From Pseudonocardia sp. N23 (GTDB lineage: Bacteria > Actinomycetota > Actinomycetes > Mycobacteriales > Pseudonocardiaceae): DNA of 64,000 bases. Positions 12,546 to 26,592 of the stretch are shown piece after piece. Both the position numbers and the translations under genes were made by a program. Position 1 is the first letter of the stretch. Each line of letters starts with the position of its first letter. The notes under the pieces are model-generated. The model did not search any database. It was not told the DNA's origin and saw nothing but the letters and a program-made list of their open reading frames with translations. Where the stretch lies: the NCBI RefSeq assembly GCF_002583555.1, contig NZ_BEGX01000155.1:62377-126376 (forward strand), written 5' to 3'.

Positions 12546-13706
12546 TCACGCCGCGCGCGCCGCCGACCCGCCCGAGGGTCCGGCGATGTGGCGGATCGTC
12601 ACGATCTTCGGGGTCCAGGACGACAGCGGCGAGACGATCACGCCGCTGCGGGAGTCGTGGGCGTCGACGACCAGGCCGTGACCGATGTACATGCCGACGT
12701 GCCGCGGGTTGCGCGGTGACCCCAGTGAGCCGGGGATCAGCAGCAGATCGCCCGGCGCGACCCGGGAGAGCTCGACAGGGGTGCCCGCAGTCTTCTGGGT
12801 GACCGTCCCCGCCGGGACGGGCACACCAGCCGCCGCCCACGCCGCCGTCATCAGGCCGGAGCAGTCGAAGGCGTCGGGCCCTTTGGCTCCCCACACGTAG
12901 GGACGGCTGATCTTGGAGATCGCGTAGGCGACGGCGGCCCGCTGCCGCGGATCGGCCGGCAGCGTGAACCCCGCAGGCACCCGGTCCTTCGCGACGCGCG
13001 CCGGGGACCGTTGCGGTCCGCCGCGGGGCGTCGGGTCCTCGGCCCGTGCCGGGACGACGTCCGCGGCGCCCTGGTCGGCGCAGCGCAGCGTCGCCGCGGC
13101 AGCGGCCTGCGGATCCTCCGGTGTGCTCTCGTCGGGACCCGGCCACAGGTACGCGACCAGTGCGGCGGCGGCGCGCTCGGCCGGGGCGTAGCGGTGCGGG
13201 AACGCCGAGCGCTGCACCGTCTGCGCCGCAACGCCCGGCGCCATCGTCGCCCACCCCGGCACCAGCGTCAGCCGGTCGAAGAATGCGGCCGCCGCCAATG
13301 CCGGGTTGAGCACCGTCTCCGGCGGACCCCAGCCCTGCGAGGGTCGCTGCTGGAACAGACCCAGCGAGTCGGCGTGGCCGTGGGACATGTTGCGCAGCGC
13401 CGACTCGACGATCGCCGTCGACACCGCGACGACCGCAGCCCGCCGCGGCAGCTGCCGCGACACCGCGACCTGCACGATCGTCTGCGCGTTGTCGGTCTGC
13501 TCGGCCGACCACGAGCGGTCACCGAGCTGCCGGGCCCCCCCGCCCGGGCCGCCGTCGCCTGCGCAGCCACCGGCCAGTGCGCCACCGAGCACCGCGACCA
13601 TCGACATGCCGGTCAACAGCGCCGTGGACGACCCCAGCCACACGGCGACGACCACGACGACCAGTGCCGCCAGGCGTGGCCGCCGGGTGCGCCGCACTCC
13701 CGTCAC
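12546..13706 (-). CDS. Membrane-anchored lysozyme-like + NlpC/P60 peptidoglycan hydrolase
   Basis: A 386-residue cell-wall enzyme. A basic N-terminus and hydrophobic stretch (about 11-48) form the membrane anchor. Residues 70-190 resemble the lysozyme-like domain of conjugation muralytic proteins, with a possible catalytic Glu101 and the segment SLGLFQQRPSQGWG. Residues 255-380 are NlpC/P60, with Cys282 in FDCSGL and candidate histidines 336 and 350. It would cut both glycan strands and stem peptides, opening the wall for the secretion channel. The GTG at 13706 overlaps the trypsin-like gene stop by four bases. It is the last gene of the twelve-gene run. Confidence 0.85.
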   Translation of the reverse strand: MTGVRRTRRPRLAALVVVVVAVWLGSSTALLTGMSMVAVLGGALAGGCAGDGGPGGGARQLGDRSWSAEQTDNAQTIVQVAVSRQLPRRAAVVAVSTAIVESALRNMSHGHADSLGLFQQRPSQGWGPPETVLNPALAAAAFFDRLTLVPGWATMAPGVAAQTVQRSAFPHRYAPAERAAAALVAYLWPGPDESTPEDPQAAAAATLRCADQGAADVVPARAEDPTPRGGPQRSPARVAKDRVPAGFTLPADPRQRAAVAYAISKISRPYVWGAKGPDAFDCSGLMTAAWAAAGVPVPAGTVTQKTAGTPVELSRVAPGDLLLIPGSLGSPRNPRHVGMYIGHGLVVDAHDSRSGVIVSPLSSWTPKIVTIRHIAGPSGGSAARAA

Positions 13707-14605
13707 CGGTCGGCCGCGTCGAACAACGCGCGGGCACCCGCGCCGATCGCGACGGCGCTGAGCCGGCCGTTCGACTCGTCGACGAAGCTCGTGACCGCCG
13801 CGACCGTGCCGATGCCCGTCCCCACGTCGAAGCTGTGCAGCCACGGCCCACCCGACGCGCCGGGCGTCATCGAGCACCGCATCTGCAGTGCCCCGAAGGC
13901 TGCGCGGTTGACCGTCACGCCCGGGCTCGTGCAGCGCCGCAACGTGCGGCCGTCGAACGGTGTCGCGGCCGGGTACCCGAGCGCCGTCATCGGGGTGCCC
14001 GCCGCGACCGTGCCGAACGCGATGCGCTGCGCCTCGACGACCTCCTGGGCCACCCGGCCGCCGACCCGGCCCAGTCGCAGGAATGCGATGTCGTAGGTCG
14101 GTTCGCCCGACCCGGCCCAACGTGGGTCGACCTCGACGCGGTCGACCGGCCAGCTGCCGAACGGTGCCCGGTCGCCGTCACGGCCGGGCACGAACCCGGT
14201 CACCGCCAGCGGGCCGGGGGCACCGTCGCCGGGTAGCTCCATCGGCGAGCGCGCGGGCCGGTGCACGCAGTGCGCCGCCGTCACGGCCACGCTGCCGCTG
14301 CGGGAGTCGACGACCGTTGCGGTGCAAGAGGTTCGTTCGGTGCGTAGCTGACCGACGGTCGCCGAGAGGGGTGCCCGGAACACCGAACCGCTCGCGTCAC
14401 CGGTGGTCGGGCCGTCGCCGTCGCGATGTGCGGCCGCGGCACGTCGGAGATGGCCGTCGAGGTCCGCGGTCTCGCTGAGGATCGCGGCCGGGGGAGGGCC
14501 CGCCGTCGCTCGCGGAGCGGCCGGTGCGGTCGGGACGGGGGCGGACAGGGCTACGGTGACCGCGCACAGGGCTGCGACCAGCGACGCGCGGCGGGAGCAC
14601 GTCAT
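13703..14605 (-). CDS. Secreted trypsin-like serine protease
   Basis: A 300-residue exported protease. The signal peptide (about 1-32) ends in an Ala/Pro-rich stretch, followed by a chymotrypsin fold with a complete triad: His112 (TAAHC), Asp172 (YDIAF) and Ser251 (PGASGGPW). A disulfide partner for the TAAHC cysteine is visible at Cys94. The ATG at 14605 is chosen because it overlaps the preceding gene's stop by four bases (ATGA); another ATG lies nine bases upstream. A protease inside a secretion operon could mature exported substrates or machine parts, which is inference. Confidence 0.82.
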   Translation of the reverse strand: MTCSRRASLVAALCAVTVALSAPVPTAPAAPRATAGPPPAAILSETADLDGHLRRAAAAHRDGDGPTTGDASGSVFRAPLSATVGQLRTERTSCTATVVDSRSGSVAVTAAHCVHRPARSPMELPGDGAPGPLAVTGFVPGRDGDRAPFGSWPVDRVEVDPRWAGSGEPTYDIAFLRLGRVGGRVAQEVVEAQRIAFGTVAAGTPMTALGYPAATPFDGRTLRRCTSPGVTVNRAAFGALQMRCSMTPGASGGPWLHSFDVGTGIGTVAAVTSFVDESNGRLSAVAIGAGARALFDAADR

Positions 14606-25585: not shown

Positions 25586-26592
25586 CGCCGCAGCCCCAGG
25601 TCGATCCGGAGCTCACCGGTGGGGAGCCGGACGACGGGCGGCGCAACGCGTGTCCACGTGGCCTCCGCCGGGGCCCAGTCGGTGGAGCAGGCCGGTGGGC
25701 AGCACGAGGCGTCGGTCGCGTGGGCGTCGGTGAGCGCGGGCGGCACCTCGGAGCGCGGTCCGATCCGCTCGAACGCCCGGACCCGCGCCGTGACCTCGAC
25801 GATCAGGCCGCCGCACGGCGTGCGCAGCGTGCGGCCGGGCAACACCGTCTCGACGCGCTGCCTGCCGCAGCCGGACCAGCCGAGCGTCGCGCCGGACGGA
25901 TCGCGCAGGAACCGGCGCAGCACCTCGGCACGGCGCGCCGGGTCGTCCTCGTCCCAGGACAGGAACTCGGCGACGAACCGGCCGGCGAAGGCCGCCGCCT
26001 CGAGCTCGGCGACGGCGCCGTGGACGTCGGTGCCCGGACGGACCGCCGAGAGGACGGGACGTGGCCGATCGGACCCGGCGCGGTCGGGCCGGCCGCTCTG
26101 CCCCCCACCGGCCGGGCACAGCTGCGCCAGGCGCTGCGCCGACCGCGCCGCCCGCCGGGTGGCCTCGATGCGCATCGTCGAGGGTGCAGGCGGGGGTGCG
26201 ACGGGTGCAGCGCCGGGCACCCAGAGATCGGAGCCGCCGGGCACCGCGAACCGCGAACCGCCGTGCAGCGGGACGATCCCGCCGCCGGCCCCGGCATCCC
26301 GTGCCTCCGGGACGACCGTGGTGACCGGCGGCGCGGCTGCGCGCGCGGGAGCCGGCAGTGAGGGAACGGGAGGTGCCGGGCGCGGGGTCGGCGCCGGCAC
26401 GGGTGGCAACGGCGGCGGAGCAGGCACGTCACGGATGAAGGCGGGCGGGGCCTGAGCGAGCGGGCCGTGGCCGGGCGGCGGCGCGGCGGCCGGGGGGAGT
26501 GCGGGGGGCGCGCTGACTCCTGGCGCCACGTGCCACGCCGGGGTGACGGCCGTGCGCGAGGTGCCGTTCGATGATCGGCCCCGACCCATCAT
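25582..26592 (-). CDS. Pro-rich protein with possible TcpC/VirB8-like domain; first gene of the operon
   Basis: A 336-residue protein with no clear signal peptide or membrane helix. The first 100 residues are Pro/Ala-rich. Residues about 195-290 contain AAFAGRFVAEFLSWDEDDPARR followed by a short strand-rich part, a pattern I associate with TcpC-type NTF2-like domains of Gram-positive conjugation. The match is weak and the absence of a membrane anchor is odd. Two adjacent ATGs start it (26592 and 26589), with AAGGGA upstream. The divergent regulator gene starts 249 bases away. Confidence 0.5.
   Translation of the reverse strand: MMGRGRSSNGTSRTAVTPAWHVAPGVSAPPALPPAAAPPPGHGPLAQAPPAFIRDVPAPPPLPPVPAPTPRPAPPVPSLPAPARAAAPPVTTVVPEARDAGAGGGIVPLHGGSRFAVPGGSDLWVPGAAPVAPPPAPSTMRIEATRRAARSAQRLAQLCPAGGGQSGRPDRAGSDRPRPVLSAVRPGTDVHGAVAELEAAAFAGRFVAEFLSWDEDDPARRAEVLRRFLRDPSGATLGWSGCGRQRVETVLPGRTLRTPCGGLIVEVTARVRAFERIGPRSEVPPALTDAHATDASCCPPACSTDWAPAEATWTRVAPPVVRLPTGELRIDLGLRR

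Follow-up and report, generated by a model that had tools for sequence, protein, structure and literature searches.

Within a 64,000-nucleotide stretch of the Pseudonocardia sp. N23 genome (contig NZ_BEGX01000155.1, positions 62,377 to 126,376 of the forward strand; hereafter the window), we identified at positions 12546 to 26592 a cluster of twelve genes that encodes a machine of the type IV secretion system (T4SS) kind. The cluster is kin to a family of plasmid-borne gene sets, lacks genes that its relatives carry, occupies a chromosomal site common to three species, is under constraint and retains intact catalytic motifs. The explanation that we favour, with somewhat better than even confidence, is that of a settled conjugation machine that shed its DNA-handling parts together with a pilin-like subunit and has been retained for a non-conjugative envelope task. 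That the machine is maintained and non-self-transmissible is highly probable, while the assignment of its task to envelope remodelling or protein export stands at roughly even chances. Since DNA-handling parts were lost while most genes stay under selection, the machine probably performs another envelope job. Throughout, G000 denotes the N23 genome and C155 its 183,452-bp contig carrying the locus, G058 denotes Pseudonocardia sulfidoxydans NBRC 16205, G033 the metagenome-assembled genome of Pseudonocardia sp. SCN 73-27, and gA to gL the twelve cluster genes in transcription order.

All twelve open reading frames (ORFs) lie on the minus strand and fill the whole interval. A sequence-only reading of the window had described them as nearly all joined by overlaps of 1-4 bp, and all eleven junctions do overlap, ten by 4 bp and one (at 19521) by 1 bp, with ORF starts set beside the preceding stop codon, a choice that favours overlaps. 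The same 4-bp or 1-bp overlaps are found in the orthologs at 7 of the 10 junctions scored in G033 and at 7 of 9 in G058. The further claim that such coupling implies a fixed stoichiometry is not supported, since a mobile relative on contig C10 of the same genome has several similar overlaps of 1-4 bp.

The core of the machine is formed by three adjacent genes. The gH product (16931..18448) belongs to the SCO6880 family (NF042935, 444 bits) and, by hydropathy, would consist of an N-terminal transmembrane region followed by a soluble domain. It is adjoined by gI (15336..16934), a VirB4-like ATPase with intact Walker A (GEPGRGKSS) and DE Walker B motifs, whose matches to VirB4-family profiles, ranging from E 1e-8 (CD1110-family VirB4) to 2e-4, all lie below curated cut-offs, and by gG (18445..19521), a VirB6/TrbL-like polytopic membrane protein matching the SCO6881 family (E 1e-5) and TrbL (E 0.001), both below cut-off. 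The set that defines an SCO6880-type T4SS core, namely SCO6880 beside a VirB4-like and an SCO6881/TrbL-like protein, is thus present, with gG and gI recognized at scores under the cut-offs. The three orthologs have a gG of 347-358 aa; the protein has 417-634 aa in those relatives of the same clade whose ORF is unbroken, and 356-370 aa in the distant clade. Because the distant-clade versions are about equally short, this length says little. Profile searches with gH returned no PDB hits, and a Pfam search of a 30-member SCO6880 alignment for a PrgI or VirB4 N-domain gave nothing significant; TrsD of pGO1 had prompted the idea that gH might be a fusion of VirB3 with VirB4-N. The single-transmembrane protein gF (19521..20300) is a VirB8 candidate by topology, as judged from hydropathy and an alignment of 16, and by gene position; profile searches gave no convincing match, no hit in PDB and no support for the VirB8/TcpC label that had been proposed from sequence. 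Of the other part labels in that proposal, SCO6880, the VirB4-like motifs of gI, the two muralytic enzymes and the protease stand, and VirB6 is weak.

The derivation from conjugation, which had likewise been proposed, is borne out by sister clusters that carry a coupling protein, one of them with a relaxase on its contig. Among plasmid-borne relatives, the closest, with a gH identity of 64-66%, belong to eight Pseudonocardia plasmids; of these, pFRP1-2, pPaSha1 and pLS1-1 are mobilizable and MOBF in PLSDB typing, and carry the same gene series as the cluster. A TraG/VirD4-type coupling protein lies in the stretch examined of pFRP1-2 and pPaSha1, the latter also with an annotated MobF relaxase; the stretch examined of pLS1-1 ends after the VirB4 gene. 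G000 itself holds four SCO6880-type loci, on C155, C10, C121 and, at 31% identity, the distant C7. The gene order of C155 is repeated on C121 and, into gC, where the contig ends, on C10; in both, a TraG/VirD4-type coupling gene directly follows the NlpC/P60 gene (TraG-D_C, 73 bits on C10) and a pilin-like gene of ~110 aa with two helices lies between gE and gF. C121 also carries a MobF relaxase. The frames of gG, gH and the coupling protein on this contig look broken, and its gC contains undetermined bases, reflecting decay or assembly error. A tree of gH and gI with 29 rows (leaving out G043_C64 and G054_C408, whose gH is identical to kept rows, C121 with its broken gH, and G051) united the three chromosomal loci in one clade (100/100) on a stem of 0.52, sister to C10, G010:C2 and G058:C91 (99/98).

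The absence of the pilin-like gene, which was not part of the sequence-only reading, sets these chromosomal loci apart from their relatives. All 28 other same-clade loci whose gE-gF region was examined have the gene, and none of the three chromosomal orthologs does. The 28 comprise C10, C121, 23 further loci of the genus and the plasmid records L006-L008, with some near-copies (G043:C63, C64); G054:C408, G055:C326 and the fragment G051:C311, which could not be judged, stand outside this count, and G030:C2 is treated as L008. In the window, gE (20297..21415) and gF overlap at 20297..20300, exactly where the pilin-like gene lies in other loci, leaving no space for one, and the same 4-bp overlap of gE and gF is found in all three chromosomal orthologs. 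A profile of the pilin-like gene had no match on C155 (best E 3.4) or across the whole G033 genome, and detected it beside distant machines on C7 (E 1.6e-6) and L047 (E 6e-5); because the gene is detectable even there, its absence from C155 is derived. In the tree it was seen in 25 of the 26 other rows, the pilin region of G055_C326 being the one not examined, and together with the two distant machines this distribution can be accounted for by a single loss. The term pilin-like is a label by size, topology and place, since Pfam T4SS_pilin matched two of 13 members, at E 1.2 at best.

By hand tally, a coupling protein lies within ~20 kb in at least 22 of the 28 loci; of the other six, the contigs of G041:C480, G037:C47 and G051:C83 end near the cluster, G026:C3 has one farther off, and G032:C1 and G043:C44 showed none within 80 kb. 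The last two loci (G032:C1 at about 3526400-3553700 of a 6.19-Mb contig) share a ~27-kb block that includes the pilin-like gene, in which tblastn over 80 kb around each found neither coupling protein nor MobF, possibly marking an independent relaxase-less lineage. In the distant clade, a coupling protein is within 5 kb of at least 32 of 36 machines (hand tally, one 20-bit row left out), those without one among the matches listed being in G055, G057 and, twice, G052. In G000 as a whole, coupling proteins (PF12696) were found at 10 places, none of them on C155, and none on the contigs of both orthologs. Relaxases occur at seven PF08751 places and one PF03432 place in the genome, with none on C155, other MOB families not having been profile-searched; recombinases occur at 21 tyrosine (PF00589) places and one serine (PF07508) place, again none on C155. 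The lack of relaxase, coupling protein and integrase, first noted for the window, therefore holds for all 183,452 bp of the contig as regards PF08751, PF03432, PF12696, PF00589 and PF07508, and tblastn of C155 with plasmid MobF and coupling proteins also found nothing. The possibility that such genes lie shortly beyond the ends of the window, which together with att sites would have refuted the sequence-only reading, was considered and rejected by these whole-contig profile and tblastn searches, and the reading withstands this test on C155; relaxases and coupling proteins are encoded on other contigs of G000. A comparison of 12451-12700 with 31301-33740 for exact direct repeats of 11-20 bp, which did not extend to imperfect ones, found none.

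In G058 and G033, orthologs with 86-87% gH identity are in conserved gene order, and coupling protein is absent from both ortholog contigs; on the left they have the window's own neighbours, including SCO6745, YchF, an Ada-AlkA fusion and others to the left end of the window. The fusion gene (8436-9971) joins Ada zinc-binding and AraC-type helix-turn-helix domains to an AlkA glycosylase. On the right, G033 differs beyond window position 32632, so that only the left neighbourhood is common with G033. An empty site is found in G034: 4.2 kb separate SCO6745 from DAHP synthase there, the two genes are ordered as in the window, and the island is missing. Compared with G034 by blastn, the window is similar up to 12524, at a distance of 22 bases from the gL stop codon, and again from 33740 onwards. 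The left edge of the island accordingly lies at 12525..12545, between the end of this similarity and the gL stop codon starting at 12546. Among 20 relatives fetched around SCO6745, ten have both SCO6745 and DAHP synthase without the island (G034, G027, G029, G041, G001, G005, G030, G019, G025 and G056), and none of the 20 has island genes near SCO6745. These results bear on whether the locus could be an active mobile element seen incompletely, with its transfer genes elsewhere on the replicon. In its favour, plasmids are the close relatives and relaxases are numerous in the genome, but the full 183-kb contig is free of the searched relaxase, coupling and recombinase families, the neighbours are common to three species and the site is empty elsewhere; this explanation is thus largely refuted and very improbable, and the earlier view that the locus is not an active mobile element is upheld.

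Selection on the cluster was estimated from the ratio of nonsynonymous to synonymous substitution rates (dN/dS) between the window and G033 and G058, at dS of about 0.4-0.6. Eleven genes were scored, gB in G033 only; the G058 contig ends inside gC, and mismatched ORFs (gA in G033, MAB1171 and ImmA in G058) were left out. Values were lowest for gE (0.10) and gI (0.12-0.13), followed by gH (0.20), gB, gC and gL (0.21-0.24), gG (0.24-0.26), gK (0.22-0.27) and gF (0.29-0.33). Most of the cluster is thus under purifying selection, nine of the eleven scored genes falling at 0.10-0.33, compared with 0.09-0.31 for neighbouring core genes. All twelve frames are open here and in G033, that of gA included, and those of G058 are open up to its contig end. 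The broken frames and relaxed selection expected of a decayed element were not found, gD and gJ being the higher ones.

Several observations weigh against the favoured explanation. The constraint is looser in gD (0.47-0.52) and gJ (0.43-0.61), and gJ is shortened only in this genome, to 245 aa versus 421-422 aa in both orthologs (~176 aa shorter, apparently in-frame), which fits some decay. G000 is represented by a fragmented assembly of 173 contigs and G033 by a metagenome-assembled genome, so that parts encoded on other contigs could act in trans. The labels VirB8, VirB6 and pilin draw on weak or positional evidence. In Streptomyces, according to unpublished data mentioned in the available part of PMC2782261, SCO6878 or SCO6881 mutants had no sporulation or pigment defect, which indicates that such machines need no visible role. 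An alternative is that the locus is left over from an integrated conjugative element, is decaying slowly and at present has no function. This would account for the loss of the relaxase, coupling protein and pilin-like gene, the shortened gJ, the weak constraint on gD and gJ and the stem branch of 0.52; open frames, intact motifs, the low dN/dS of most scored genes and the retention of most overlaps speak against it, and we consider it improbable. As for the pilin-like subunit, Gram-positive T4SSs are said not to encode conjugative pili (PMC12857230, in the part available), and its loss need not disable the machine.

The main rival to a retained non-conjugative function is a shared mating pore, still conjugative and lent in trans to mobilizable elements that lack a pore but themselves encode a MobF relaxase and a TraG-type coupling protein. 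In each of G000, G033 and G058, MobF and TraG-D_C lie within a few kb of each other on several contigs; on C48, C63, C105 and C127 of G000 and C79, C80, C89 and C93 of G033 this pair occurs with no SCO6880-type match on the contig. In G033, the C155-type locus is the sole SCO6880-type match, lacks the pilin-like gene and coexists with four such MobF/TraG contigs. Many mobile elements need a helper, as the available part of PMC11389934 also indicates. TraG-D_C is, however, also found in genomes without an SCO6880-type match (all candidates scored in G019 and G028; 24 each in G009, G018 and G059), in which MobF was not searched; such proteins therefore occur without the machine, and the rival is weakened. 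In addition, deletion of the Streptomyces Cmd cluster left the transfer of an SLP2-derived plasmid unchanged (PMC2782261, available part), and a pore without its pilin-like subunit is not an obvious choice for borrowing. We regard this arrangement as unlikely, weakened as it is, but as the explanation that competes most directly.

The remaining genes of the cluster suggest how a retained machine might work. The first, gA (25582..26592), encodes a soluble protein with a proline-rich N-terminus and a conserved C-terminal domain (FAGRF..SWDED..GWSG.GRQR), aligned with 10 relatives, for which no Pfam or NCBIfam family matched. Two ParA-type proteins had been proposed: gB (24308..25585) is a genuine ParA/MinD-type ATPase with an intact KGGVGKT motif (CbiA E 1e-10, MinD E 7e-12), while gE is ParA-like, strongly conserved, with a degenerate P-loop lacking the Lys and a CbiA match (E 0.013) below cut-off. 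An Rpf-type transglycosylase with an N-terminal hydrophobic segment and the motif CESSG is encoded by gD (21412..23088; PF06737, 106 bits), and an NlpC/P60 (C40) peptidase with Cys and His motifs by the last gene, gL (12546..13706; PF00877, 65 bits). The products of gJ and gK are exported. A beta-helix had been recognized in gJ (14602..15339), for which the match to PF13229 (E 0.002) is below cut-off, making it beta-helix-like at most; gK (13703..14605) is a trypsin-like protease in which the His, Asp and Ser motifs are present (PF13365, 38.6 bits). PADLOC, applied to 9 of the 12 cluster proteins and to a neighbouring 588-aa protein, gave two marginal matches.

The exported protein gC (23085..24311), with no convincing family match, appears to be the best candidate for a client of the machine, because it has its N-terminal domain in common with a plasmid protein of the GH16 type. 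This domain of ~45 aa (CGWR...PGF..C) recurs in the GH16 protein that plasmids encode at the corresponding place in the gene order (hhalign probability 95, E 4e-8, 46 columns), and the C-terminal domain differs. The gC protein matched in 8 of 249 genomes of the family. Proteins with this type of N-terminal domain and differing C-terminal domains also occur at the equivalent position in L007 (6590-7903), L064 (7035-8444) and others. The C-terminal domain of gC belongs to an exported-protein family with extra copies in G000 (C114, C14, C21), G010 (C1) and G019 (C14), and some further copies are without the N-terminal domain.

We propose the following course of events. In an ancestor common to P. 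sulfidoxydans and its relatives, the mating-pore part of an actinobacterial T4SS of the SCO6880/VirB4 type may have inserted into the chromosome between the genes for SCO6745 and DAHP synthase; the relaxase and coupling protein would have been lost or never brought in, and the pilin-like subunit lost. In the present machine, gI with gH, gG and gF would form an energized membrane complex, while the Rpf-type gD and the NlpC/P60 gL could open the wall locally, and together these parts would create a passage or a site across the envelope. Placing or assembling the machine might fall to the ParA-like proteins, and the exported gC, gJ and gK may be displayed, processed or passed on at its site. Lacking a coupling protein, the machine would have to recruit any substrate directly or take it up once Sec has exported it. 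A more specific version, which we advance tentatively and consider doubtful, is a dedicated two-step exporter or surface-assembly device without pilin or coupling protein, for which gC would be exchangeable cargo, docked through its N-terminal domain and with its C-terminal domain swapped, GH16 on plasmids giving way to another domain here.

The genes to the right of the cluster appear to belong to the same island. Divergent from gA on the plus strand, 26799..27353 encodes a putative DNA-binding regulator (XRE is our own label; no Pfam or NCBIfam match), kept beside the cluster on C121, G010 and G033, and is followed by a membrane protein with DUF6545/MAB_1171c similarity at 27350..28531 (PF20182, E 2e-8; NF042915 below cut-off) and an ImmA/IrrE-like metallopeptidase candidate at 28559..29113 (PF06114, E 0.001, below cut-off), both on the plus strand. 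The 588-aa membrane protein at 29588..31354 on the minus strand has a Cys-rich N-terminus and no family match; its gene also lies close to the cluster in C121, G010 and G033, and one is likewise found near the distant C7 machine. As the divergent genes at 26799-29113 recur next to the clusters of C121, G010 and G033, these right-hand neighbours are part of the element rather than of the core genome. The core-gene flanks described in the sequence-only reading therefore hold on the left side and fail on the right, where regulators as parts of the element were absent from that account.

While no publication on this locus was found in the open-licence literature, comparison with known systems places it among related cases, the literature cited below being represented by the available parts of each source. 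The Pseudonocardia MOBF plasmids resemble it in their series of ParA/MinD, exported protein, transglycosylase, ParA-like protein, gF, VirB6-like protein, SCO6880, VirB4 and NlpC/P60; in contrast, they add the pilin-like gene and have a GH16 protein at the gC position. In Streptomyces coelicolor, cmdABCDEF (SCO4126-4131) is a chromosomal set of six genes that resembles the SLP2 conjugation genes and has a role in sporulation, indicating that genes akin to those for plasmid transfer can, on a chromosome, work in development rather than in transfer (PMC2782261). It and its paralog SCO6871-6884, likened here by description, are chromosomal and have VirB4-like, SCO6880-like and SCO6881-like proteins (PMC2782261); they differ in the six genes and sporulation role of cmd, and in that two mutants of SCO6871-6884 showed no defect. 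The MOBless T4SS class (Guglielmini 2011, PMC3158045) is similarly VirB4-bearing, chromosomal and relaxase-less, and often thought to export proteins, whereas the C155 machine also lacks a coupling protein and pilin-like subunit and is in an actinobacterium. T4SSs of Patescibacteria (PMC12102498) are likewise found in monoderms, thought to be co-opted and mostly relaxase-less, but many have VirB2-like pilins, some arrayed, and the C155 machine is without the pilin-like gene of its family. The T4SS of the 89K island of Streptococcus suis is Gram-positive and reported to export protein (PMC12857230), and, unlike ours, has VirD4.

Whether Gram-positive T4SSs became dedicated effector translocators is a long-standing question (PMC12857230, a 2025 review). 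In the N23 genome the stripped chromosomal form occurs together with fuller sister forms, and a cultured, named relative and an empty site are at hand for comparison, which makes testable, in an environmental genus, what a conjugation machine keeps once the sending of DNA stops. If our interpretation is true, strong selection can continue to act on VirB4 and its membrane partners when neither a pilin-like subunit nor a coupling protein is adjacent. Relaxase-less T4SSs and the Streptomyces Cmd system are known already; new here is a form also stripped of the coupling protein and the pilin-like gene.

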